Positions 45 through 11,302 of a stretch of DNA of 12,139 bases are shown one piece after another (the stretch's first letter is position 1; each line of letters opens with the position of its first letter). The notes beneath the pieces are model-generated. The model was not told the DNA's origin. It worked only from the letters and a program-made list of their open reading frames with translations, and searched no databases. The DNA comes from Actinomycetota bacterium. GTDB taxonomy: Bacteria > Acidobacteriota > Blastocatellia > Chloracidobacteriales > Chloracidobacteriaceae. The translations under genes were made by a program, and so were the position numbers. Location: positions 1 through 12,139 of the forward strand of contig JAAFHI010000033.1 in assembly GCA_013298335.1 (NCBI GenBank), given 5' to 3'.

Positions 45-118
45 TGGCTGGCGAGCAGGGAGTCGAACCCCGATTCTACGCTCCAAAGGCGCATGTCCTA
101 CCATTGGACGACTCGCCA
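45..118 (-). tRNA. tRNA-Gln (anticodon TTG), CCA encoded
   Basis: The minus strand folds into a full cloverleaf. The acceptor stem is TGGCGAG/CTCGCCA, the D stem GTCC/GGAC has loop AATGGTA, the anticodon stem is TGCGC/GCGTA, and the T stem CGGGG/CCCTG has loop TTCGACT. The seven-base anticodon loop CTTTGGA puts TTG at positions 34-36, which reads CAA glutamine codons. The weak first pair U1-A72 and discriminator G73 match the known identity elements of bacterial tRNA-Gln. The 3' CCA is encoded (bases 47-45). It lies 25 bp downstream of ispE on the same strand and may be co-transcribed with it. From general knowledge, ispE followed by tRNA-Gln and then prs is a recurring bacterial gene order; prs would lie beyond the left edge. 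Confidence 0.95.
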
Positions 119-143: not shown

Positions 144-1037
144 CTACAGACGACCGACCCGCTCCGCGTATTCCGCGCGGCTGACGCTTCGACAGGACCA
201 GACCCGCCACCCGTGTTCGGCCAGTGCATTTTCAGCCGTTGCGCCCGCCGCCGCATTCTCAAAAAAACCGAAAACCGTGCTCCCGCTGCCCGACATCCGC
301 GCCACCGTCGCACCGGCTTCGACGAGCGTTTCGCGAACCCGCCCGACGACCGGAAAGTCCCGAAAAACAGGCACTTCCAGGTCATTTACAAACACAGTTC
401 GGGCGTCGCCTTCCGGCGGGAAAGCGATGAATATACGGCTCGGTTCGGGGCTTGTCAACGGCATATTCAAACTTCGGAACACCGGCGCGGTCGGCACGGC
501 GACCTTCGGATTGACCAGCAGAAGCACCGGAACCTCAACGTCCGGAAGGGGTTCGATGATGTCGCCGCGACCGGTTCCGAGCGCCGTCCCGCCGTAGAGG
601 AAGAACGGAACGTCGGCTCCGAGCGAGGCCGCGATGCCGAGCAGCGTTTCATCGGGCACGGTCGCGTTCCAGAGCCGGCGCAGGGCGAGCAGGGTCGCCC
701 CGGCGTCGCTGCTCCCGCCGCCGAGACCGGCTTCCATCGGAATCCGCTTTTCGAGACGAATCGCCGCGCCGCGCGTCACGCCCGCCGCCGCCTGAAGCGC
801 GCGCGCCGCCCGGACGACCAGATTCCGTTCATCGGTCGCCAGTTCCGGACGGTCGCATTCAAGGCGGATGTCGGACGTCTCCAGCCGCGAAAAATGGAGC
901 GTATCGGCCAGACTCACCGTTTGAAACACGGTGCGCAGTTCGTGGTAGCCGTCGGGACGCCGCCCGACCACTTCGAGCGACAGATTGATCTTGGCAAACG
1001 CCGGAACGCTCACCGTGGGGAGGGATTCGTGGGTCAC
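144..1037 (-). CDS. ispE: 4-diphosphocytidyl-2-C-methyl-D-erythritol kinase (IspE)
   Basis: This is the cytoplasmic GHMP-family kinase that phosphorylates the 2-hydroxyl of CDP-methylerythritol with ATP, the fourth step of the MEP isoprenoid pathway. At 297 residues it has the normal family length. The N-terminal AKINL motif carries the catalytic Lys16, and PDGYHEL (28-34) is the substrate region. The glycine-rich ATP loop PMEAGLGGGSSDAGA spans 100-114, GADVPF holds the catalytic Asp142, and MSGSGSTVFG is the C-terminal GHMP motif. The start is GTG at 1037: an in-frame TAA lies only three codons upstream, and no Shine-Dalgarno sequence is visible. A later in-frame GTG (codon 9) is possible. 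The whole gap to the upstream PilZ-like gene is a heptad repeat element, so ispE probably depends on read-through from that gene. Confidence 0.97.
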   Translation of the reverse strand: MTHESLPTVSVPAFAKINLSLEVVGRRPDGYHELRTVFQTVSLADTLHFSRLETSDIRLECDRPELATDERNLVVRAARALQAAAGVTRGAAIRLEKRIPMEAGLGGGSSDAGATLLALRRLWNATVPDETLLGIAASLGADVPFFLYGGTALGTGRGDIIEPLPDVEVPVLLLVNPKVAVPTAPVFRSLNMPLTSPEPSRIFIAFPPEGDARTVFVNDLEVPVFRDFPVVGRVRETLVEAGATVARMSGSGSTVFGFFENAAAGATAENALAEHGWRVWSCRSVSRAEYAERVGRL

Positions 1038-1045
1038 GTTTTTTT

Positions 1046-1140
1046 AGCAGTCAGCAGTCAGCAGTTAGTGGTCAGTGGAAGAAGAAGAACGCGGATTCAG
1101 TCAAACGCCACTAACTACTAACGACTAACCACTGACTACT
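1046..1140. repeat. Heptad repeat element, family A copy 1 (inverted arms)
   Basis: The left arm (1046-1078) reads AGCAGTC, AGCAGTC, AGCAGTT, AGTGGTC and a partial AGTGG, in exact 7-bp register. The right arm (1108-1140) reads partial CCACT, then AACTACT, AACGACT, AACCACT and GACTACT. These are complements of the same degenerate heptad AGYRGTY. The arms are in inverted orientation around a 29-nt A/G-rich core (1079-1107). The right arm overlaps the stop codon (1138-1136) of the minus-strand PilZ-like gene, and the left arm ends about 9 bp before the ispE start. Pairing of the arms is imperfect, with G-U pairs and some mismatches, but a long hairpin is possible. Confidence 0.9.
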
Positions 1141-1708
1141 GGTTTTCAAAATCGTCCGGCAGCAGCCACTTGCCGGCCAGTGTCGAAAATTCGACGCCGA
1201 TGCGGAACCGGTCGCCTTCCGCCGTCCGGCGGAGGTTGCGGACGGTCGCCTGAATCATTTCCTCAGGTTCCCCGCCCGTCCCGAACAGATGGATGGTTTC
1301 CCCGATGGAGACTTCGGCCCGAACCGAAAGCTGCGCGCCCTTGATGCTCGTGACCTCGACGACCGCGAGTTCGGCAAAGACCTTCCGCCGCGTGTCGCCC
1401 GTCACGAGGATGACCGCCCGCGAGAGCGGAAAGCGCGGCACTTCCCGGTTGCCGGTCGCCGGACTGAGCGGAGTTGTCGTTTTTTTGGTCCCGCGCGAGA
1501 AGGCGACTTCCTCGACCGCGCCGCGCAGCAGACCAAGCTTGTCCCGGTCGAGTCGCTGGGCTTCGAGCACTTCCCACAAAAGGAGGTGCGCCTGCGGGTC
1601 ACGGGTGTCATTCCAGAGTACGCTGTACAGTTCAATCAGCGCCTCGTTGTAATGCCCGCTCTGGAAAAGTTCACGGGCGCGTTTGCAAGTCGCAGGTGCA
1701 ATCGTCAT
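1136..1708 (-). CDS. TPR-like/PilZ-like domain protein
   Basis: This 190-residue soluble protein has no signal peptide or membrane segment. Residues 1-70 look like one or two TPR-type helical hairpins (ARELFQSGHYNEALIELYSVLW, with a DPQAHLLL helix following). After a Thr/Ser/Pro-rich linker (72-90), residues 92-176 resemble a PilZ beta barrel: a short Arg-containing lead-in, a beta-rich middle with VTSIKG where PilZ has (D/N)xSxxG, and the typical closing strand FRIGVEF. PilZ domains often bind cyclic di-GMP, but the RxxxR and D/N residues are not canonical here, so ligand binding is doubtful. The start at 1708 gives the full TPR segment; no strong ribosome binding site is visible. It is divergent from the CobW gene and upstream of ispE. 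Its last codon and stop run into a heptad repeat. The PilZ assignment is moderate. Confidence 0.75.
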   Translation of the reverse strand: MTIAPATCKRARELFQSGHYNEALIELYSVLWNDTRDPQAHLLLWEVLEAQRLDRDKLGLLRGAVEEVAFSRGTKKTTTPLSPATGNREVPRFPLSRAVILVTGDTRRKVFAELAVVEVTSIKGAQLSVRAEVSIGETIHLFGTGGEPEEMIQATVRNLRRTAEGDRFRIGVEFSTLAGKWLLPDDFENQ

Positions 1709-1801
1709 GCGGCACTCGTCACAAGAAGGTTCGGGTCCGGTCCGGAAGGCGCGAAACTATACACGAAAATCCGTCGCGGGGAGAAAATCGTGCGAAAGGG
1801 A

Positions 1802-1831
1802 TTGTGAAACGAACAGACCGGATGCTAGCAT
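1802..1831 (+). promoter_or_regulatory. Possible sigma70-type promoter and 12-bp palindrome before cobW-like gene
   Basis: TTGTGA (1802-1807) and TAGCAT (1826-1831) are separated by 18 bp, a fair but weak match to -35/-10 boxes, about 50 bp before the GTG start at 1886. A perfect 12-bp palindrome, GATGCTAGCATC (1821-1832), overlaps the -10 box and could be an operator. It does not resemble the known proteobacterial Zur box. This is inference from motif match only. Confidence 0.3.
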
Positions 1832-1885
1832 CGCCGTTTTCGGTGGAGACGCCGAAGAGCTTTGTATTGTCCCGGAGAACGCCCC

Positions 1886-2899
1886 GTGAAACCTGAAAAC
1901 GTACCTGTCGCCACCGCGTCGCCGATACCGACGTACGTCATTTCCGGTTTCCTCGGAAGCGGAAAAACGACGCTGCTCCTTGAAATCCTGCGCCACATGC
2001 GGTCCATCGGACGCAAGGTCGCCGTCCTGATGAACGAATTCGGCGACATCAGCATTGACGGCGAACTGCTCAAGGGCGAGGGGTTCAGCGTGATGGAACT
2101 CAGCGACGGCTGCATCTGCTGCCAGATCGGCGAGGATTTCGTTCAGGCATTCACGGATGTCGCCTCGCGCGGCCCGGAAATGATTTTCGTCGAGGCGACC
2201 GGCCTGGCCGACCCGGTGGACCTGATCGATCAGGCGACCGCGCCGCACCTGCTCGAAAAAGTCCGCATCGAGAAGATGGTCACCGTCGCCGACCCGAAGA
2301 ATTTCCCCCGGCTGTCGAAAGTGTTGAAGGCGATCGTGAAGCGGCAGACGCAGTTCGCCGACGTCCTGATCATCAGCAAGGGCGACGAAGCGCCCCCCGA
2401 ACAGATCGCCCAGATTCGGGAATACGTCGCGGAGCACAACCCCCACGCCCCCGTGCTGCTCGTGACCAACGGCGTCGTCTCGGGCGACGAGGAGTTCCGC
2501 TGGCTGCTCGGCGAAACCGACACCGCCGATCAGGAACGCAAGCGGGCGGCGATGCGCGCGGCGCTGGTGGCCCTGAGCGACGAGGAATACAAGGCGCATA
2601 CGGGATTTCACACCCTGTCGTGCCAGTTGGTCCGCGCGCTCGACCGGACGAAGTTTGAAACGTTCATGCGGACGCTCCCGCCGGAAATCCTTCGTGCGAA
2701 AGGATTTACCCGGTTCGAAGGCGAAACCGGCCTGTGGGTCGTGATGTATGTCAACGGCGATCTCTACATCCGCCCCGTGACGCTCGCGCCCGCGCCCGAC
2801 GAACATCTGGTTTTCATCGGCTCGCACCTCGACCACGCGGCGCTCGCCGGGGCCCTGACGGCCTGCGAAGCGAAGCGGCGCTCGCTGGCGGTGCTTTGA
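1886..2899 (+). CDS. COG0523/CobW-family G3E GTPase (putative metallochaperone)
   Basis: The protein is about 337 residues and belongs to the G3E GTPases, cytoplasmic GTP-driven metal chaperones that include CobW, YjiA and ZNG1-type zinc chaperones. Visible motifs are Walker A GFLGSGKTT (21-29), NEFGDISIDGELL (about 50-62), the metal-binding CxCC motif as GCICCQ (Cys76, Cys78, Cys79), the EATGLADP segment, and SKGD in place of the canonical NKxD guanine motif. The C-terminal part (about 230-330) matches the CobW C-terminal domain, with GETGLWVV and an LVFIG segment. I chose the GTG at 1886 because GGAG (1874-1877) sits 8 bp before it; a TTG at 1862 would add eight residues but lacks such a site. 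The metal specificity cannot be read from the sequence. A TPR gene and rpsR follow on the same strand. The context with a cysteine-poor bS18 hints at zinc. Confidence 0.9.
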   Translation: MKPENVPVATASPIPTYVISGFLGSGKTTLLLEILRHMRSIGRKVAVLMNEFGDISIDGELLKGEGFSVMELSDGCICCQIGEDFVQAFTDVASRGPEMIFVEATGLADPVDLIDQATAPHLLEKVRIEKMVTVADPKNFPRLSKVLKAIVKRQTQFADVLIISKGDEAPPEQIAQIREYVAEHNPHAPVLLVTNGVVSGDEEFRWLLGETDTADQERKRAAMRAALVALSDEEYKAHTGFHTLSCQLVRALDRTKFETFMRTLPPEILRAKGFTRFEGETGLWVVMYVNGDLYIRPVTLAPAPDEHLVFIGSHLDHAALAGALTACEAKRRSLAVL

Positions 2900-2942
2900 G
2901 ACGACCGAGAGACACGGCAGGAAATTGACCCGTAGTAACGAT

Positions 2943-4052
2943 ATGGCCAACAAATCACGCAAGAACAAGCCCCGCGACGCCGAACGTCGCGGCCCGAGTT
3001 TCGAAGAATTGCTCCAGCACGGAGAAGAAGCGCTCGAAGAGGATGATTTCGAGGAAGCCGAGGCGGCCTTCGCGGCGGCGCTCGAACTCTCCCCCAATTC
3101 ACCCGAAGCCCACGTCCGGCTCGGGGCCCTGCTGCTTGAAACCGACGAGTTCGAGATCGGCGTCAGACACCTCAAGGAAGCCGAACGGCTCGCGCCCGAC
3201 GACGTCCGCCCGCTGCACCTGCTCGGCGCGTTCTACATGGAAGAAGGCGAACTGAAAACGTCCGAAGCCTATTTCCGCCGCGCGCTCGACATCGCCCCCG
3301 AGGATTCCCTCAGCCACCACAACTTCGGCAACCTGCTCGCCGAAATGGGACGGTTTCAGGATTCCGAAGCGAGTTACCGCAAGGCGATCGCGCTGAACCC
3401 GGAAGAGGCCCTCCACTTCCTCGGACTCGGCGGCCTGTTCGCCGATCAGGAAAACTACGAAGCCGCGCTCGATCAGTTCAACCGCGCGCTCAGACTCAGC
3501 CCGGACGATTCGCGCATCCACCACGACCTGGCGGATCTGCTGATGACGCTCGAACGCCGTGACGAAGCCATCTCGCATTACCGCGAAGCCGTCACCATCG
3601 ATCCGAAGAACACGCTCGCCCGCTACGGACTGGGCAATGCCCTGCTCATCGCCGGCGACAGCGCCAGTGCCGAATTCGAAATGAAAGAGGCCATTGCTGA
3701 CGGACTCGAAGTGCCGCTCGCGTTCATCAAGCTCGGCATCGCGCTCCGGATGCAGAAGAAGGATGACGAATCAAGCGCCTCCTTCCAGATGGCGCTCGAC
3801 CTGCTCGACGAGGAACACGAAACGAGCAGCGACACGATTGAAAGCCGCTACGAACAGATCGTCGCCGAACTCGGCATCGGCAACGGAACGGCTGCTCTGG
3901 AAAGCGCCGAACTGCTCGTCGAGGAAGATCACGATCCGACCGCGGTTTCGGAATTGTCCGTCGACTTGAAACGACTGGCCGAACTCGGCGTCGCCGGGGC
4001 CGAAGAGGTCCTGAAACTGCTGAACCGCCAGCCGGAAGAATTCATCAACTAG
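2943..4052 (+). CDS. TPR-repeat protein
   Basis: This roughly 369-residue protein begins with a basic tail (ANKSRKNKPRDAERRG) and is then almost entirely tetratricopeptide repeats of about 34 residues. About eight are recognisable, with the usual G/A/P spacing (for example HNFGNLLAEMGRFQDSEASYRK, then ALDQFNRALRLSPDDSR and EAISHYREAVTIDPKNT). It is strongly acidic. No signal peptide, membrane helix or catalytic domain is visible, so it is probably a cytoplasmic protein-protein scaffold of unknown partner. The ATG at 2943 is the conventional start but has no clear ribosome binding site. A TTG at 2925 directly after AGGAAA would add six residues. It starts 43 bp after the CobW-like gene and is probably in one transcript with it. 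Its stop codon TAG (4050-4052) is the first part of a heptad repeat array. Confidence 0.9.
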   Translation: MANKSRKNKPRDAERRGPSFEELLQHGEEALEEDDFEEAEAAFAAALELSPNSPEAHVRLGALLLETDEFEIGVRHLKEAERLAPDDVRPLHLLGAFYMEEGELKTSEAYFRRALDIAPEDSLSHHNFGNLLAEMGRFQDSEASYRKAIALNPEEALHFLGLGGLFADQENYEAALDQFNRALRLSPDDSRIHHDLADLLMTLERRDEAISHYREAVTIDPKNTLARYGLGNALLIAGDSASAEFEMKEAIADGLEVPLAFIKLGIALRMQKKDDESSASFQMALDLLDEEHETSSDTIESRYEQIVAELGIGNGTAALESAELLVEEDHDPTAVSELSVDLKRLAELGVAGAEEVLKLLNRQPEEFIN

Positions 4053-4139
4053 TAGTTAGTGGTCAGTAGTTAGTAGTGAGTTCAGAAAAGAACTTCTAAA
4101 TGCTAACCACTAACTGCTAACTGCTATCTACTTACTGCT
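4051..4139. repeat. Heptad repeat element, family A copy 2 (inverted arms)
   Basis: The left arm (4051-4082) reads AGTAGTT, AGTGGTC, AGTAGTT, AGTAGTG and a partial AGTT. Its first two bases are the last two of the TPR gene's TAG stop. The right arm (4101-4139) holds TGCT, AACCACT, AACTGCT, AACTGCT, ATCTACT and TACTGCT, the complementary orientation of the same AGYRGTY heptad. The core between them is 18 nt (4083-4100). The right arm ends 5-6 bp before the rpsR ribosome binding site, so the element occupies nearly the whole TPR-rpsR gap. Confidence 0.9.
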
Positions 4140-4155
4140 CGAAAAGGATACGACG

Positions 4156-4443
4156 ATGGAAGAACAGAACACCCGACCGGCCTCCGGGCCGTCTTCGTCC
4201 CCGGCACCCCGCCGGAATTCGAATCAACGTTCGCGCACGTCGCGCCGCAAGAAGCGCTGCCCGCTGCTCGAATCCAAAATTGACTACATTGATTACAAGG
4301 ATACGCGGATGCTCGAGCGTTTCCTCGGCGACAACAAGCGCATCCTTCCCCGCCGTCTGACCGGCGTGAACACGACCATGCAGCGCCGGCTGGCGACGGC
4401 CATCAAGCGCGCCAAGCAGATCGCGCTCCTGCCGTACGTTTAA
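4156..4443 (+). CDS. rpsR: 30S ribosomal protein bS18
   Basis: bS18 is a small-subunit protein of the platform that partners bS6. The C-terminal 60 residues match the family closely: [16 protein letters not shown], then [11 protein letters not shown] and the final [19 protein letters not shown]. At 95 residues it has a Ser/Pro/Arg-rich N-terminal extension of about 30 residues beyond the compact core. AAGGA (about 4144-4148) lies 7 bp before the ATG. Zinc-binding bS18 forms have a CxxC plus a further Cys; here only one Cys remains (KKRCPLLE) and the later site reads TGVNTTMQR, so this is a cysteine-poor, zinc-independent type. It is not in the common rpsF-ssb-rpsR-rplI cluster. It follows a CobW-like and a TPR gene and is closed by a strong terminator. 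Confidence 0.97.
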
Positions 4444-4488
4444 GTCGGATTTCTCGCCATCGTCGGCGGGACGCCAACCGTCCGGAAG

Positions 4489-4527
4489 GCACACCGAAAC
4501 GCACTTTTGCGAGTCGGTGTGCTTTTT
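4489..4527 (+). terminator. Rho-independent terminator after rpsR
   Basis: A perfect 9-bp stem, GCACACCGA (4489-4497) with TCGGTGTGC (4514-4522), encloses an inner CGCA/TGCG stem and is followed by TTTTT (4523-4527). It lies 46 bp after the rpsR stop codon. On the opposite strand there is no U tract after the stem, so it acts mainly on plus-strand transcription and ends the CobW-TPR-rpsR unit. Confidence 0.9.
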
Positions 4528-4546
4528 CGCGTTTGAAAACGGGGAT

Positions 4547-4957
4547 TCAGTTTACCGGGGCCAGCAGAAACGCCAGCACAATCGCCAGACCGGCAATCAG
4601 GCCGCCCCAGAGCAACAGCGGATGCTGCTTTGCGGCCACCGTCCGGAGCCATTTCCAGTGCAGGACAAGATGGGCGGCGATCAGCCCGATGAAGACGACC
4701 GACAGCCAGGAATGAATGTCGCCCCATTCGTGGCGTCCGAGACCGAACGCCTCCGGACGGGTCGGACCACCCCGCCGAGGCGGCAATCGGAGCCAGAGCA
4801 GCAGCCCCGTTCCGGCGAGGATGCAGAAGTTGATGTACAGAAGAAGATTAAGCGCGCGATTGAGCCGGAGATTCAAGCTCGGCGACCGGGATTCGGATTT
4901 GGCGGGCTTTGCGGCGCCGGTTGCGTGGGTGAGCACATTTTTTTCAGCCGTGACCAT
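4547..4957 (-). CDS. DUF4405-like small membrane protein, copy 1
   Basis: This 136-residue protein has a polar N-terminal tail (1-34) and three predicted membrane helices: about 35-57, 80-103 and 113-133. Five histidines lie in or beside the helices (76, 82, 96, 100, 112), in the pattern RHEWGDIHSW, then AAHLVLHWKWL and KQHPLLLWGG. That pattern resembles the DUF4405 family, whose histidine-rich helices look like those of small cytochrome b-type proteins. Heme binding is inferred, not shown. GGAGG lies 9 bp before the ATG, within a leader almost identical to that of the neighbouring paralogue. The two proteins are very similar from the first helix onward, which indicates tandem duplication. 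Confidence 0.8.
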   Translation of the reverse strand: MVTAEKNVLTHATGAAKPAKSESRSPSLNLRLNRALNLLLYINFCILAGTGLLLWLRLPPRRGGPTRPEAFGLGRHEWGDIHSWLSVVFIGLIAAHLVLHWKWLRTVAAKQHPLLLWGGLIAGLAIVLAFLLAPVN

Positions 4958-5161
4958 GGCGATATTCCTCCGTGGTTCGGGATGGGGTTGTTGCTTTCAA
5001 GGTAATCCGCGCACGTTGCGGTTTGACGGGAATTTCGTAAAGGAATAACTCCGGTCCCGAGAAAATTGTAAAGTATTGGTGAAGAACGACATGGGAGCAT
5101 TCCGCCGGGTCGTGACTTGGTCTTGCGAACCGCGTCCCTTATCGTTCAACCCAAGGAGGTT

Positions 5162-5542
5162 TCATCCGACCGGCACCAGAAGCAGTACCAGTACAATGAC
5201 GACACCCGTCGCCAGTCCTCCCCACAGCAGAATCGGATGCTGTTTTGAAACGACCGTCTTGAGCCATTTCCGGTGCATCACGAGATGGGCGACGATCAGG
5301 CCGATGAATACGACCGCGGCCCATGAATGAACCTCGCCCCAGCCGTGACGCGAGATATTGAGCGGGCCTGGCCCCTGGCGCGGCAGTTCCCGCAACCACA
5401 AAAGCAGTCCGCTACCGGTCAAAAGGCAGAAATTCAGGTATAAAAGAAGATTGAGGGCGCGGCTCGTCACGAGATTCCAGCTCGGTGACCGCGTTTCGGT
5501 TTTTGCGGCTTTCGCGCGCGCGTCGGATTGCACGGTAACCAT
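5162..5542 (-). CDS. DUF4405-like small membrane protein, copy 2
   Basis: This 126-residue paralogue of the downstream gene has the same architecture: a polar tail of about 28 residues, then three membrane helices. All five histidines are kept (66, 72, 86, 90, 102) with identical spacing to copy 1, arguing for a structural or cofactor role such as heme ligation (inference). The loop between helix 1 and helix 2 is shorter than in copy 1. The leader GGAGGCATATCGCCATGG differs by one base from that of copy 1, so the duplication included the ribosome binding region. It lies about 200 bp upstream of copy 1 on the same strand and is divergent from the PhyH-like gene, with a 77-bp shared gap. Confidence 0.8.
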   Translation of the reverse strand: MVTVQSDARAKAAKTETRSPSWNLVTSRALNLLLYLNFCLLTGSGLLLWLRELPRQGPGPLNISRHGWGEVHSWAAVVFIGLIVAHLVMHRKWLKTVVSKQHPILLWGGLATGVVIVLVLLLVPVG

Positions 5543-5619
5543 GGCGATATGCCTCCACTTGGTTTCAGTGATCCGCCCGCAAAACTGTCTCTCTCAACCC
5601 TACTCCTGTCGGCGGCGCA

Positions 5620-6324
5620 ATGCTTCAAAGAGATACAAGCCTGAAAATCGGCCCGGAGTTGAATGAACGCGGTTTTTTCATCACGGAAAACGTCGTTTCC
5701 GCCGCCGAATGCGACGCAATGGGCGACGTTCTCTCCCGAATTCCGCGCAGGGACGGACGGGCGGGCCTCCGTCACCTGATGCGCTTCCCCGAAATCGCCG
5801 CCCTCGCCCACGATCCGCGCCTGCTCGCGCTCGCCGGGCAAACGCTCGGCCCAACCGCAATTCCTTTCAAGGCAACGCTTTTCGAGAAATCCTCGACCGC
5901 GAACTGGGCGATTCTCCGGCATCAGGACACCGCGCTCCCGCTTGAAACGGCGTTTGAACATCCGGAATGGGGGCCGTGGTCGGTCAAGGACGGCCTCGCC
6001 TACGCGCACGCCCCCGCGTGGGCGCTCAACCGCGTGGTTGCCCTTCGCCTGCACCTCGACGCCGCGACCGGGGAAAACGGACCGCTTCACATCGTGGACG
6101 GATCGCACGTCCACGGCGTACTTTCCGACGAAACCGTTTTTCGTCTCGGGCGCGAACGTCCCGCCGCCACCTGCCTCGTCGGACGCGGCGGCGTGCTCGC
6201 GATGCGTCCGCTTGTCATTCATGCCTCGTCGAAAGCGAAAACCGACGCACCCCGGCGCGTTCTGCATTTCGAATACGCCGACCGGCTCGACCTCGCGCCC
6301 GGCATCCGCCTCGCACTGGCGTAA
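5620..6324 (+). CDS. Phytanoyl-CoA dioxygenase (PhyH)-like Fe(II)/2-oxoglutarate oxygenase
   Basis: This 234-residue cytoplasmic enzyme shows the jelly-roll iron site of the PhyH superfamily. The metal triad is HxD (LRHQDTALP, His101 and Asp103) with the distal His201 (RPLVIHASSKA), and Arg212 or Arg213 in RRVLHFEYA is placed to bind 2-oxoglutarate. The segment NGPLHIVDGSHVHG (153-166) is the characteristic strand-turn of the family. Family members hydroxylate diverse small molecules, so the substrate is unknown and the name does not imply phytanoyl-CoA. The start at 5620 gives a full-length protein; no convincing ribosome binding site precedes it. A thioesterase gene follows after 39 bp, suggesting a two-gene unit acting on an acyl-CoA or related compound. 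Confidence 0.88.
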   Translation: MLQRDTSLKIGPELNERGFFITENVVSAAECDAMGDVLSRIPRRDGRAGLRHLMRFPEIAALAHDPRLLALAGQTLGPTAIPFKATLFEKSSTANWAILRHQDTALPLETAFEHPEWGPWSVKDGLAYAHAPAWALNRVVALRLHLDAATGENGPLHIVDGSHVHGVLSDETVFRLGRERPAATCLVGRGGVLAMRPLVIHASSKAKTDAPRRVLHFEYADRLDLAPGIRLALA

Positions 6325-6363
6325 ACCCTTGCATTTCAAAAACTTCCAACCGAATCCGCCACT

Positions 6364-6822
6364 ATGAACGAAACCGCTTCGCCACATTTCCGCTACTTTC
6401 TGCGCGTCCGCTACAGCGAGTGCGACAGCCAGAAAGTCGTCTTCAACGCACGCTACGGCGACTACATCGACCTCGCCGTCCTCGAATTCCTGCGGGCCAT
6501 CGGCTTCGGCGAGCCGGTCGTGACGAGCGAACTCGACTACCAACTGGTCAAGCAGACCATCGAATGGAAAGCGCCCGCGCGGTTTGATGATGTGGTGGAA
6601 ATTTCCGTCCGGACGCTCCGTTGCGGCACGACGTCGTTCACGCTCGCCGCCGAATTTCGCCGCGCCGGGTCGGACACCCCGCTCGCGACCTCGGAAACCG
6701 TCTACGTCATGGTCGATGCCGAAACACTTTCGAAGCGCCCGCTTCCGGACGACTTCCGCGCCGCCCTCGAACGCGGCGCACCCGGCGCGACCACCGATCA
6801 CGCGGGGTATTCGGCGCGTTGA
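6364..6822 (+). CDS. Hotdog-fold acyl-CoA thioesterase (4HBT/YbgC-FadM type)
   Basis: This 152-residue protein fits a single hotdog domain. Its N-terminal motif RVRYSECDSQKVVFNARYGDY (15-34) corresponds to the RYxDxDxxGHVxNxxYxxY signature of the 4-hydroxybenzoyl-CoA thioesterase family; Asp21 is at the usual catalytic acid position. The usual Gly-His is replaced by Lys-Val, so the active site is slightly unusual. Later strands (ISVRTLRCGTTSFTLAAEF and SETVYVMVD) match the fold. It would hydrolyse an acyl-CoA or acyl-ACP thioester in the cytoplasm; the substrate is not predictable. It lies 39 bp after the PhyH-like gene and has no visible Shine-Dalgarno site, so it may depend on the upstream gene for expression. 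Confidence 0.88.
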   Translation: MNETASPHFRYFLRVRYSECDSQKVVFNARYGDYIDLAVLEFLRAIGFGEPVVTSELDYQLVKQTIEWKAPARFDDVVEISVRTLRCGTTSFTLAAEFRRAGSDTPLATSETVYVMVDAETLSKRPLPDDFRAALERGAPGATTDHAGYSAR

Positions 6823-6934
6823 ACGTCGAATCCGAGTGAAATATCGCCTGCGGGGCATTGAAGTCGGCCACACCCGGAAGAAACGGGAATAAGGGAAAAG
6901 ATGTGGTCGAATCTCGGCGGGCGTCGCTATACTC

Positions 6935-6940
6935 GGCGAT
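6935..6940 (+). promoter_or_regulatory. Possible -10 box for mnmA
   Basis: TATACT occurs about 40 bp before the mnmA start in an otherwise GC-rich gap, a 5/6 match to the -10 consensus. The sequence 17-18 bp upstream gives a poor -35 box, so this is only a tentative call. Confidence 0.3.
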
Positions 6941-6973
6941 GGTTTGGAAAGCTCTTGAAGGTGAATTTTTGCC

Positions 6974-8164
6974 ATGACGGAACGGATCGCGGTCGCCATG
7001 TCGGGTGGCGTGGACAGTTCGGCGGTTGCCGCCCTGCTCAGGGAACAGGGTTGCGACGTGGTCGGGCTGTCGATGCAGTTGTGGAATCAGCGGCGCATCA
7101 ACGTCGACAAGGACGGCAATCCGCTGGCCTCACGCTGCTGCTCGCTCGACGATCTCTACGACGCGCGCGCGGTCGCCGACCACCTCGGAATGCCCTTTTA
7201 CGTGCTGAACTTCGAAGACGACTTCGAGGAAAACGTCGTCAAGCCATTCGTTTCCAGTTATTTGAACGGCAACACGCCGAGTCCGTGCGTGGCCTGCAAC
7301 AGCCGGTTGAAGTTCAAGACGCTCGTGAAGCTGGCGGAAGACATCGGGGCCGACAAGGTCGCGACCGGCCACTACGCGCAGGTCCGCCACAACGACGCGA
7401 CCGGACGCTGGGAACTCCACAAGGGCCTCGATCCGAACAAGGATCAGTCGTATTTCCTCTTCGAACTGACGCAGGACCAGCTTGCGGTGGCGATGTTCCC
7501 GCTCGGCGAAATGTCGAAGAAGGAGGTCCGCGACCTGGCGCGACGGCACGGCCTCGCGACGGCGGAAAAAGCCGAGAGTCAGGAAATCTGCTTCATTCCC
7601 GACGGGAATTACGCGCAGTTCATCGAACGCTACGTCGCGGAGGCGGGCGGCGAAGTGATCGCCGAGCCGCAGTCGCCGGTCGCGCCCGCGCTCGTGCAGC
7701 TCGGTCTGCGCCGGACGCTTCCCGGCCCCGGCGACGTGGTGACGACCGACGGACGCAAGCTCGGCACGCACGAGGGCACGCACCGCTTCACCATCGGACA
7801 GCGGCGTGGCCTCGGGGTGTTTTCCGGCGACGGCACGCCGCTCTACGTCGTGGGGATTGATTCCGCGACCCGCCGCGTGATCGTCGGCACCGACGACGAC
7901 CTGCCCGGCAAGTCGCTCATCGCCACGCGGATGAACTGGATTTCGATTCCGGAACTCGTCGAGCCGCTCCGCTGCAAGGTCCGCATCCGCTATCGCCACA
8001 CGGAAGCCGACGCGGTGCTGCATCCGCTGCCCGACGGGAATGTCCGGGCGGTGTTCGATGAACCGCAGCGCGCCATCACGCCGGGACAGGCGACCGTTTT
8101 CTATGACGGCGATTCCGTCATCGGCGGCGGCTGGATTCAGGCCGGAGATTTGCCGCAATGCTGA
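6974..8164 (+). CDS. mnmA: tRNA-specific 2-thiouridylase MnmA
   Basis: MnmA puts sulfur on C2 of the wobble uridine (U34) of tRNA-Lys, -Glu and -Gln, using ATP and a persulfide relayed from cysteine desulfurase. The 396-residue length is normal or slightly long. The PP-loop SGGVDSS (10-16) binds ATP. PCVACN places the nucleophilic Cys108, and [11 protein letters not shown] holds the persulfide-carrying Cys206. TGHYAQ and the [12 protein letters not shown] segment are family hallmarks, and the [12 protein letters not shown] segment leads into the C-terminal tRNA-binding barrels. The ATG at 6974 follows AAGGTGA by 9 bp. One of its substrates, tRNA-Gln(TTG), is encoded in the same window. It overlaps the next gene by 7 bp. 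Confidence 0.98.
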
Positions 8165-8418
8165 TTTTTCAAAATGAACGCCCCGAAGACCTCACGGTCA
8201 TCATCGACCCCTGGGGCGGTGACTTCACCCTCGCCCCCGCTGAAGGCATCCGGATTCTGCCGCTCCCGGACGCCAAAGCCTGCTGGTTTCAGATCACCGA
8301 TTTCCCCGACCACGTTTCGATTTCAATCGAGGGAAAAGCCGATTTCTACGAAGTCTTCCACGCCGCCACCGGCGATCTGCTCCCGACCGGCTACGGGCGC
8401 GAGCGGGTGGAGGACTGA
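8158..8418 (+). CDS. Small protein of unknown function, overlapping mnmA
   Basis: I do not recognise this 86-residue protein confidently. It is soluble and acidic with alternating hydrophobic residues suggesting a small beta-rich fold: [23 protein letters not shown], then a WFQITDF strand and [15 protein letters not shown]. It has no signal peptide or membrane helix. The ATG lies inside the last codons of mnmA (ATGCTGA overlap, 7 bp shared) and GGAG lies about 10 bp before it, so translation is probably coupled to mnmA. Codon use matches the neighbours, which supports a real gene. Its stop (TGA, 8416-8418) lies three bases before a heptad repeat arm. Confidence 0.75.
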
Positions 8419-8421
8419 AGT

Positions 8422-8586
8422 GAATGCGGAATGCGGAATATCGAATGCGGAATAAAGAGAAAACCGGTTTTCATAAAGAAATCGCTTGACTCGCGGAACC
8501 TCTGACTACAATTCACCGCATTCCGCATTCCGCATTCCGCATTCCGCATTCCGCATTCCGCATTCCGCATTCCGCATTCCGCATTC
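8422..8586. repeat. Heptad repeat element, family B (GAATGCG), inverted arms
   Basis: The left arm (8422-8453) holds GAATGCG, GAATGCG, GAATATC, GAATGCG and a partial GAAT in exact register. The right arm (8517-8586) is ten perfect tandem copies of CGCATTC, the reverse complement of GAATGCG. A 63-nt unique core (8454-8516) lies between and contains the perfect palindrome GAAAACCGGTTTTC (8459-8472). The element fills the gap between two convergent genes. The left arm begins 3 bp after the TGA of the plus-strand gene, and the right arm touches the TAG of the minus-strand gene with no spacer. Confidence 0.97.
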
Positions 8587-9864
8587 CTATTCGAGTCCGA
8601 GCCGGCTGGAGCACTTGAACAGGGCAATGCCCAGGACGTAGGAAAGAACGATCGAGAAATAGAATTCGAACACCGGGGCAATCAGGCTGCCGGCGATACG
8701 TCCGCCGAGAGCGCCGACGATGTAGCTGATGGTGAAATTCGCTACCCCGATCACGAGGTACATCAGGAAAACCCCGCCGTACGTCGCGCCCATGCGCCGG
8801 ATCGTGTCCAGGCCGACCAGCGGATTGATAACGGCGGTAAAGCTCTGGGAAAACCCCGCCACCAGCAGCGCCATCGGGTAATAGAGTACCGCCCAGACGG
8901 CAGCTACCCCGGCAAAAACCAGCGCCACCACGGCCTTCGCCATGGCCTCCCGCATGCCCGCCTGATCTTCTCCGGCACCCCTGAAAAAGGCGCTGATGAT
9001 TCCGATTCCGGCATAGAGCACCGCCACAATCGCCGGTCCGAAGGAAATCAGGATCACGCCGATGCTTAAAAAGAACGGATGGATGACGTCATCGTAGGCC
9101 GAGCCGAAATCCGGGGCATAACCTTCGTTCACGCGGCCATCGGCCACCCGCCGGATCACCGTCGACATGGTGGCGAAGAGCATGCCGGTGGAAACGACCG
9201 TCAGAATGATCCACCCGAACAGTCCGCCGAAGCCGGCCCCGACTTTCATCACGGCATAGACGATGCAGAAAATAATCAACGCCACGACATCGGTGAAGGG
9301 AAAGCGAAAGCCGTCAAACAGGTCGGTGACTCCGAACCCCGACGTCTGGTAGGCGTCACGGGCCATCTGTTGCGCGATTTCGGCGTAGGGCTGACATAAC
9401 TCGCCGCACACCGAACAGACCGGAACGCGATTGGCGACCAGTTTGACGCAGTTTTTACAGAGGGGCGCCGCGCAGGCGCGACAGACGTAATCCGGGGTCA
9501 CCTGCGGATGGTTGCGACACACCATCAGGTGGGCCGTGGTGGAGGCGGGCACCGTGCCGTACACCGGCGCGCCGGACGATGAATTCGAAAAACCGCCCGG
9601 CACGGGCGCGGGAGGGGGCGGCGCATAGGCGGGAAGGCTCGCACCCGACTGGTGGACCGGATTGGTTGCGCTTGAAGTCAGACCGCCGGTTCCGAAGATC
9701 GGACGCAACATCGGAACATTCGCCGCGGGCGTCCAGTTCAGGTTTCCCTTCTTCACGAAGTCCTGCGGCAACAGGTTCCCCTGCGTCGCCCATTGCTTGA
9801 GCGTCTCGGAATCGGCTTCGTAAATCGTGCCCTGAACCTGTACCTGCCAAACGTCATTCGCCAT
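8587..9864 (-). CDS. GYF-like / zinc-finger / multi-pass membrane protein
   Basis: This 425-residue protein joins three parts. Residues 1-55 resemble a bacterial GYF_2/DUF4339-type domain (WQVQVQGTIYEADSETLKQW, ending NLNWTPAANVPML). A Pro/Ser/Gly-rich linker spans 56-112. Residues 116-157 form a B-box-like zinc-binding region with Cys116, His119, Cys128, Cys131, Cys136, Cys139, Cys150, Cys153 and Cys157. Residues 190-418 hold about six hydrophobic helices and resemble DUF4013-type membrane proteins. No signal peptide is present, so the N-terminal domains are probably cytoplasmic and the protein sits in the inner membrane. AGGTGA lies 7 bp before the ATG. The gene stands alone; its role is unknown, perhaps binding proline-rich partners at the membrane (inference). 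The stop directly abuts a heptad array. Confidence 0.85.
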   Translation of the reverse strand: MANDVWQVQVQGTIYEADSETLKQWATQGNLLPQDFVKKGNLNWTPAANVPMLRPIFGTGGLTSSATNPVHQSGASLPAYAPPPPAPVPGGFSNSSSGAPVYGTVPASTTAHLMVCRNHPQVTPDYVCRACAAPLCKNCVKLVANRVPVCSVCGELCQPYAEIAQQMARDAYQTSGFGVTDLFDGFRFPFTDVVALIIFCIVYAVMKVGAGFGGLFGWIILTVVSTGMLFATMSTVIRRVADGRVNEGYAPDFGSAYDDVIHPFFLSIGVILISFGPAIVAVLYAGIGIISAFFRGAGEDQAGMREAMAKAVVALVFAGVAAVWAVLYYPMALLVAGFSQSFTAVINPLVGLDTIRRMGATYGGVFLMYLVIGVANFTISYIVGALGGRIAGSLIAPVFEFYFSIVLSYVLGIALFKCSSRLGLE

Positions 9865-10060: not shown

Positions 10061-11302
10061 TCAGCCGTCGTAACGCTTGAAGGCGAGCGTGACGTTGGTG
10101 CCGCCGAACCCGAAGGAATTGCTCAGGGCATAGCGAATCTCGGCCTGACGGGCGGTGTTCGGCACGTAGTCGAGATCGCAGTCGGGATCGGGGTCGGTCA
10201 GATTGATGGTCGGCGCGATGCGCTGATCCCGCAGGGTGAGGGCGGTGAAACAGGCTTCGACCGCACCCGCTGCGCCGAGCAGGTGTCCGGTCATGGATTT
10301 CGTCGAACTCACGGCCAGTCGGGCGGGGTGATCGCCGAACAGGGCATGGATCGCCGCCGTTTCGGCGCGGTCGCCGGCGGGCGTCGATGTGCCATGCGCG
10401 TTGAGGTATCCGATGTCGTCGGGCGTTATGCCCGCGTCCGCGAGCGCATTGCGCATCGCGCGCCGCGCGCCGTCGCCGACTTCATCGGGCTGGGTCAGGT
10501 GGAACGCATCGGCGGATTGCCCGTACCCGACGATTTCGGCATAAATCTTCGCGCCGCGCGCCAGCGCCTGGTCGAGGCTTTCGAGGAGCAGAATGCCCGC
10601 GCCCTCGCCCATCACGAAACCGTCGCGTCCCTTGTCGAACGGACGACTCGCTTCGGTCGGCGCGTCATTGCGGGTGGAGAGCGCCCGCATGGCCGCGAAT
10701 CCGCCGATGCCGGTCGCCGTGATGGCGGCTTCGCCGCCGCCGCACAGCATGGCATCGACATCGCCGCGACGGATCATCCGGAAGGAATCCCCGATGGCGT
10801 GCGCGCCCGACGCGCAGGCGGTGGCCGGCGCCGTGTTGGGTCCCTTCGCGCCGAAGCGCATCGAAACCTGCCCCGCCGCCAGATTGATGATGGTTGCCGG
10901 AATGAAGAAAGGCGAAATACGTCCCGGTCCGCCATTGAGAAGTTTTTCCTGTTCGCGCTCGATGATGGCGAGGCCGCCGAGCGCCGAACCGATGTCCACG
11001 CCGATCCGTTCGGCGTTGGATTCGGTAATCTTCAGCCCGCTGTCATCCATCGCTTCCTGCGCGGCGGCGACCGCGAAGTGGATGAACGCGTCCATCTTCT
11101 TGATTTCTTTTTTCTCGATGAATTTCGCCGGATCGAAGTCCCTGACCTCGCCGGCGATACGGGCGCTGAATTTTTCGGAATCGAAATGGGTGATGGGACC
11201 GATGCCGCTCCGCCCGGCCAGCACGGCCGCCCAGGCTTCCTCGGCGGTGTTGCCGACCGGACTCACGATCCCCAACCCGGTGATGACGACGCGACGCTTC
11301 AC
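10061..11302 (-). CDS. fabF: Beta-ketoacyl-ACP synthase II (FabF)
   Basis: FabF is the cytoplasmic condensing enzyme that joins malonyl-ACP to acyl-ACP in fatty acid elongation. The 413 residues are full length. The thiolase-fold active site is complete: Cys163 in [11 protein letters not shown], His303 in [11 protein letters not shown] and His340 in [13 protein letters not shown] with Lys335. These numbers equal those of Escherichia coli FabF. The C-terminal NSFGFGGTN motif (395-403) is also present. The start is GTG at 11302, with GGAGG 5 bp before it. It lies 19 bp downstream of acpP on the same strand and is the last gene of the fabD-acpP-fabF group, followed by a long hairpin. Confidence 0.98.

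Follow-up and report, generated by a model that had tools for sequence, protein, structure and literature searches.

Three intergenic gaps in a 12,139-nt window (the whole stretch of DNA analysed; contig JAAFHI010000033.1 of GenBank assembly GCA_013298335.1, Chloracidobacteriaceae) are occupied by arrays of 7-bp tandem repeats, each consisting of two arms in inverted orientation around a core (Table 1). The arrays belong to a genome-wide class in which unrelated repeat units share one strand-ordered layout anchored at stop codons. With somewhat less than even confidence, we lean towards regarding them as lineage-specific hairpins at the 3′ ends of genes, similar to repetitive extragenic palindromic (REP) sequences but distinct from them, which turn over quickly and, as we infer, act at the terminating ribosome.

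A segment scan for period 7 at a score threshold of 11 found seven segments in the window, while 300 dinucleotide shuffles averaged 0.02 segments and never exceeded 1. Six of the seven are the arms of the three arrays, inverted within each gap, which confirms the starting point of the original prediction; the seventh (10444–10472) lies inside a coding open reading frame (ORF; 10061–11302, minus strand). After the arm limits were re-drawn, the cores measured 31, 9 and 62 nt, so that two of them fall within the predicted range of 18–63 nt and one below it. The predicted contact with a stop codon was recovered in each gap, but array 1, with its left arm, and array 2, with its right, each face a start codon, and only array 3 is situated between two stops. 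The right arm of array 1 begins 6 nt inside the end of the PilZ-type gene, and the left arm of array 3, scoring 11.2, falls below the threshold of 12 applied in the multi-genome counts, for which genes were called by an in-house script.

Table 1. Positions of the three arrays, their parts and the tRNA gene in the window
Feature	Position	Strand	Description
Array 1	1046–1141		gap between PilZ-type and IspE-type genes, both on the minus strand
Array 1, G-rich arm	1046–1078	+	AGYRGTY units; the start codon of the IspE-type gene 144–1037 (minus) is 9 nt away
Array 1, core	1079–1109	.	31 nt
Array 1, second arm	1110–1141	-	G-rich on the minus strand; includes the TAG stop (1136–1138) of the PilZ-type gene 1136–1708 (minus)
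Array 2	4050–4139		gap separating two plus-strand genes, the TPR gene and rpsR
Array 2, G-rich arm	4050–4081	+	first letters are the TAG stop (4050–4052) of the TPR gene 2943–4052
Array 2, core	4082–4090	.	9 nt
Array 2, partner arm	4091–4139	-	C-rich on the plus strand; faces the rpsR start
Remainder between array 2 and rpsR start codon	4140–4155	+	16 nt; AAAGGA-like ribosome-binding site
Array 3	8422–8587		gap between the 86-aa ORF and the convergent 425-aa ORF
Array 3, G-rich arm	8422–8453	+	GAATGCG units; 3 nt past the TGA (8416–8418) of the 86-aa ORF 8158–8418
Array 3, core	8454–8515	.	62 nt; carries the AAAACCGGTTTT palindrome
Array 3, second arm	8516–8587	-	about 10 perfect GAATGCG units; touches the TAG stop (8587–8589) of ORF 8587–9864 (minus)
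tRNA gene	48–118	-	Rfam match

A class of arrays with unrelated units

In the window's own genome (G000), the AGYRGTY dimer, AGYRGTYAGYRGTY, has 301 + 346 matches, overlapping ones counted, against 1 + 5 for the reversed pattern (647 vs 6), and GGGTNTC, GAGAATT, AGGGRTC, GGATGAR and further units are found in the same layout. Likewise, the related genome G003 holds GGGTTCA, AGGGATG and AGTGGTT arrays of this layout, and G001 holds AGGACTG and GGGTTCA arrays and none of AGYRGTY. The predicted class of unrelated units in one layout is therefore real, and its members differ widely in repeat unit sequence. A common consensus, T-[CG]-[AG]-[GA]-[GT], was considered and rejected: it appeared significant over 68 distinct units (2.09 vs 1.58 ± 0.07), and the signal was gone when one unit per family was used (9 families, 2.45 vs 2.53 ± 0.24).

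Period 7 dominates the arrays. At threshold 12, G000 yielded 48 period-7 arrays over 190 kb, G003 88 over 315 kb, G001 34 over 137 kb and G026 15 over 197 kb, while each of the other periods from 4 to 13 gave 0–8 arrays in G000, 0–6 in G001 and 0–7 in G026 (the longer periods 14 and 21 are themselves multiples of 7). The exceptions come from G003, where period 8 gave 23 arrays and period 9 gave 10. The G000 sample comprised the window and every tenth contig from C300 to C690, of which some read as N and were excluded from the base counts; the samples of G001, G003 and G026 were low-numbered contigs and hence not random, and in one sample batch 3 of the 20 stretches were positioned around pattern matches.

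The distribution of the arrays is patchy. Among nine further relatives sampled, arrays were found in G014, G021, G033 and G037, and 37 kb from four genomes of the same order contained none. Among 149 genomes from the phylum, 18 have the AGYRGTY trimer, which reaches hundreds of copies in G000 and G003 only. The surroundings of mnmA in 80 named loci from many phyla (878 kb) yielded 24 period-7 arrays in 10 loci, and 0–13 arrays at each of the other periods from 4 to 13.

Strand order and anchoring at stop codons

Layout was scored over 102 array-bearing gaps from four genomes, the window's own gaps included. Loci L009–L028, picked for pattern matches, were excluded from the layout, edge-rule, single-arm, pair-unit, placement and quadruplex counts, and included in the unit-consensus, stop-contact, folding, flank and covariation tests and in the core comparison. 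The arms are predominantly intergenic (155, vs 14 intragenic). Every gap with exactly two opposite arms, 34 out of 34, has the G-rich arm on the left and the C-rich arm on the right; in addition, four two-arm gaps hold arms of like orientation, and the one gap with three arms reads minus, plus, minus. The 5′ end of the G-rich strand is the one nearer its own gap or ORF edge (the edge rule) in 125 of 152 arms, a count in which arms sharing a gap are not independent, so that its p-value comes out too small.

Arms lie at a median of 4.5 nt from the codon they face if this is a stop, and 49.5 nt if it is a start. Stop-facing clusters within 10 nt of the codon number 59 out of 80, against 26.2 for random placement in their own gaps (maximum 43 in 5000 draws), while start-facing clusters show no pull to start codons (12/60 vs 16.6). 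Single arms obey the edge rule in 27 of 32 cases when facing a stop and in 12 of 23 when facing a start. As arms are pulled to the stops they face and not to starts, the stop codon is taken as the anchor, with the second arm following from pairing. The genome-wide inverted pairing and linkage to stops that had been predicted are thus both present, and the arrays are neither randomly placed nor confined to the three sites of the window.

This layout is not bound to 7 bp. The 8-bp arrays of G003, GTGACAGG-like and AGTAGCGA-like (loci L158, L160, L161, L165 and L173), are arranged like the heptads in plus-minus order, with 17 of 22 arms obeying the edge rule and 8 of 15 stop-facing clusters within 10 nt, which speaks against the earlier suggestion that three heptads serve protein binding in helical register. 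The 9-bp arrays of the same genome do not share the layout (edge rule 3/7).

G-quadruplex formation, the proposal made for GGGNATC repeats in Xanthomonas and Nostoc, is very unlikely to account for the arrays. A three-layer quadruplex pattern is present in 24 of the 152 arms and a two-layer pattern in 78, yet the 128 arms devoid of the three-layer pattern still obey the edge rule (103/128) and, when facing a stop, still cluster within 10 nt of it (49/72). Quadruplex potential is not needed for the layout. A role of the arrays as a translation-stop shield was also considered and found weak, with stops in all three frames in 74 of 152 arms, compared with 63.2 in column-permuted controls, and none in 48.

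In every arm the G-rich strand points 5′ to 3′ outward from the flank. This orientation could result if a telomerase-like enzyme or a reverse transcriptase added G-rich repeats to DNA ends that were subsequently joined. We consider such an origin extremely unlikely, given that G000 (5.1 Mb, 90.5% complete) has no RVT_1 match, with 5 in G001 and 3 in G003, that the units are many and different, and that they are mostly alike within a pair. Reverse transcriptase was rejected as an array-linked factor, as its occurrence does not track the arrays.

Pairing and folding of the arms

Units of partner arms are within two substitutions of each other under rotation in 37 of 40 pairs. The predicted folding energy of 58 arm-to-arm spans is -0.45 kcal/mol per nt, compared with -0.22 in their mononucleotide-shuffled versions. 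In the window, the fold of array 1 on the minus strand (1038–1141) reaches -48.2 kcal/mol (z -7.9) and encloses the PilZ-type gene's stop codon wholly within the predicted stem. Array 2 (4050–4155) reaches -35 kcal/mol (z -4.3), with the TPR stop codon partly within the lowest-energy stem and a centroid that retains only a small inner hairpin, and array 3 (8416–8590) reaches -67.8 kcal/mol (z -7.9), its lowest-energy stem beginning just past the stop codon. The centroids of arrays 2 and 3 lack long arm pairing, which is what competition between several registers would lead one to expect.

Read in the sense RNA, mismatches in the 44 true pairs comprise 79 G-U and 37 A-C. The excess of G-U over A-C was rejected as a sign of RNA selection: the G-U share of mismatches is 0.681 in true pairs and 0.685 between arms from different loci, and therefore reflects base composition and no partner-specific covariation. 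On the sense strands of tandem gaps, the 5′ arms contain more G and T than do the 3′ arms read as their complement, an asymmetry which is likewise not partner-specific; transcription-linked C-to-T change would fit it as a source.

Strong predicted hairpins just past stops, and arrays in 16 of 63 convergent gaps, could point to bidirectional intrinsic terminators, as had originally been suggested. We judge this quite unlikely. Only 7 of 64 flanks have TTTT in the 8 nt next to the 3′ arm, and 4 have AAAA. Furthermore, tandem gaps, the tpr–rpsR gap among them, bear arrays as often as convergent ones (76/297) and are the commonest setting (76 of the 102 array-bearing gaps), and divergent gaps hold arrays in 10 of 79 cases.

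Array turnover and the question of mobility

Comparison of orthologous gaps had been proposed as a check, and it shows that array turnover between related genomes is fast. In the conserved cobW-tpr-rpsR cluster, the gap between tpr and rpsR measures 103 nt and holds an array in G000, while G003 (17 nt) and G001 (20 nt) have a shorter, array-free gap; both of these genomes place arrays after rpsR instead, with different units. In the window, a terminator-like hairpin with a T-run was seen by eye after rpsR, at about 4490–4535, where G001 and G003 carry their arrays. The PilZ-IspE gap holds AGYRGTY units in G000 and AGGACTG units in G001, and no 7-periodic array was found in it in G003 at threshold 11. 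Another relative locus, L058, was discarded for gap comparison, mnmA being the sole gene it has in common with the window.

As to how such differences come about, the 16 nt that remain ahead of rpsR in G000 look like the short gaps of G001 and G003, which suggests an insertion right behind the stop codon. Six array-free relatives have a tpr–rpsR gap of 76–115 nt, so a replacement of older sequence is equally possible. By eye, these six gaps (L266–L271) apparently contain GC-rich hairpins without heptads.

Near letter-for-letter recurrence at several loci was found for GGGTNTC arms in G000, and GATGA arms in G003 (L162, L163, L166 and L171) are followed by a common stretch near AAACCAATTCTTCAGCCC, which suggests that GATGA arrays and this downstream stretch make up a dispersed composite element. 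In at least some families, copying is thus involved. Such recurrence would also be expected from mobile palindromic elements, comparable to REP doublets forming hairpins (REPINs) or miniature inverted-repeat transposable elements (MITEs), that are spread by a Y1 transposase (TnpA, or REP-associated tyrosine transposase, RAYT) and then lengthened by slippage. The parts of the gaps outside the arrays match another array-bearing gap in 14 of 59 cases in G000, 36 of 53 in G003 and 4 of 20 in G001, values that sub-threshold repeats may inflate, and Y1 genes are present in G000 (5), G001 (11) and G003 (9). As a general origin, mobile elements nevertheless appear unlikely. Y1 genes are also present in array-free relatives (11 in G006), and the many units per genome would demand many element families. 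Among the Y1 loci listed for the array-rich genomes (L300–L325, with 1.5 kb flanks), 5 of 26 have arrays, each one-sided; at the loci listed earlier, any array was found in 4 of 29, and none of the Y1 loci listed has, in these flanks, an array with one shared unit on both sides of the gene.

A possible role at the gene end

The explanation we lean towards would combine gain, slippage and retention. Arrays would be gained next to stop codons and would lengthen or shorten via slippage of the unit, and they could be retained because transcription places a hairpin where the ribosome terminates. There, the hairpin could slow termination or recycling, block 3′-to-5′ exonucleases, or loosen the coupling between neighbouring cistrons. 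Unit sequence would be of little weight in this process; what would count is a purine-rich, C-poor arm beside the stop and a downstream partner arm.

A number of observations weigh against such a role. Close relatives manage without arrays, as seven other members of the family (G002 and G004–G009), sampled over 134 kb, had none, and the tpr–rpsR gap can be long in array-free relatives. More than half of the array-bearing gaps, 55 of 102, have one arm only at threshold 12, and the array-bearing divergent gaps are without any stop codon. In 3 of 40 pairs the units are unrelated and expected to pair poorly. Identity between partners exceeds that between same-unit arms elsewhere only slightly (0.900, n = 44, vs 0.867, n = 195), the mismatches give no partner-specific covariation, and U-tracts after the hairpin are scarce. 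Finally, no linked RAYT emerged, the Y1 transposase not tracking the arrays at the loci listed.

In the main rival explanation, the arrays are neutral products of polymerase slippage in expendable space, tolerated only in the stretch right after the stop, promoters and ribosome-binding sites preceding the starts. We hold this for a real possibility, if a rather doubtful one. It agrees with the free unit sequence, the fast turnover, the patchy distribution of the AGYRGTY trimer, the lack of partner covariation and the distance kept by start-facing arms, and a proposal cited in the accessible text of Rehm 2015 (PMC4692102), that the 7-nt unit mirrors the polymerase contact length, speaks for it as well. 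On the other hand, neutral slippage by itself would lead one to expect neither inverted pairs in a fixed strand order nor a pull to stops beyond random placement in the same gaps (59/80 vs 26).

Alternatively, repeats could be written blindly to sequence: C-poor, G-rich repeats of 7–8 nt with a mirrored partner would be added or maintained outward from stops with any unit, under an enzymatic or structural rule for the 7–8-nt step that several phyla would have in common. This strikes us as improbable; if true, it would mean that architecture, and not sequence, is inherited or selected.

Comparison with known repeats

Reports that bacteria have an excess of heptamer repeats go back to 2007, and to our knowledge there is no agreed reason for it. 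With several unrelated heptads in one genome, and octads in a relative, all in one stop-anchored, strand-ordered layout, neither unit sequence nor quadruplexes can serve as the common cause; the layout then points to the gene end itself, and the question becomes testable. In cyanobacteria, short tandemly repeated repetitive (STRR) sequences, which PMC4692102 also cites, are tandem heptads, and a stem of the tRNA-Leu intron pairs heptads with complementary heptads. Judged by description alone, our arrays are similar to these in their tandem 7-nt units and paired arms.

The layout had not been recognised as a named system, but the accessible text of Rehm 2015 (PMC4692102) describes it for Xanthomonas, with convergent inverted pairs of GGGAATC heptads numbering 70 and 75 in two genomes. 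There, the heptads lie nearer the 5′ neighbouring ORF (on average 28 nt, vs 160 nt to the next one), mostly less than 50 bp from stop codons and on the coding strand, with few between divergent genes; the GGGGA(T/C)T heptads of Nostoc are mostly unpaired, and quadruplexes are favoured as the explanation (PMC4692102). The arrays of our study likewise consist of intergenic, G-rich 7-nt units nearer the 5′ ORF and in convergent inverted pairs. They differ in that several unrelated units coexist in one genome, most of them without the three-layer quadruplex pattern, while one G-tract unit per genome is described in that text. Relative to it, the independence from unit sequence, the several units per genome and the tight anchoring at stop codons are new. 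A search of the open-access literature, with most subscription journals outside its scope, found no paper on a unit-independent, stop-anchored layout.

TAACTGA direct repeats occur in Beggiatoaceae, Cyanobacteria and Bacteroidetes, according to the accessible part of MacGregor 2015 (PMC4679880); in the Beggiatoa genome they are forward repeats sitting immediately before start codons, and the 169 sets include a single indirect repeat. They resemble our arrays in being heptads that are patchy over phyla, strain-specific and mixed with other heptamers, whereas the anchor here is the stop codon. The REP sequences and bacterial interspersed mosaic elements (BIMEs) of E. coli share with our arrays an intergenic location, inverted or palindromic structure, many copies and, for some, proximity to stop codons. 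As given in the available part of the RepRanger paper (PMC12306157), 446 of 4,072 predicted E. coli REPs lie within 15 nt of a stop, and REPs at such distance are reported to stall ribosomes. They have a shared palindromic consensus, unlike the 7-bp tandem units found here. Tandem repeats of Borgs, as described in the accessible text (PMC9879509), are also fast-evolving, of independent origin and biased in strand composition, but they are perfect and A-rich, with units of about 18–21 nt in the examples, and about half lie inside ORFs.

Other features of the window

Domain matches over ten ORFs include GHMP kinase, PilZ, CobW, TPR, Ribosomal_S18 and others. Pfam places GHMP kinase domains in 144–1037 (minus), whose product we take to be IspE, PilZ in 1136–1708 (E 1.3e-4) and Ribosomal_S18 in 4156–4440, the rpsR gene. 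Two further products are presumably MnmA and FabF; among the matches listed, the nearest named relative of MnmA is that of Chloracidobacterium sp. CP2_5A (75%). Over the whole window at the gathering threshold, Rfam matched the tRNA alone, and the arrays match no described RNA family. Adjoining ORFs 4547–4957 and 5162–5542 (minus) encode small membrane proteins with the look of a tandem duplicate, the first of which has a DUF4405 match.

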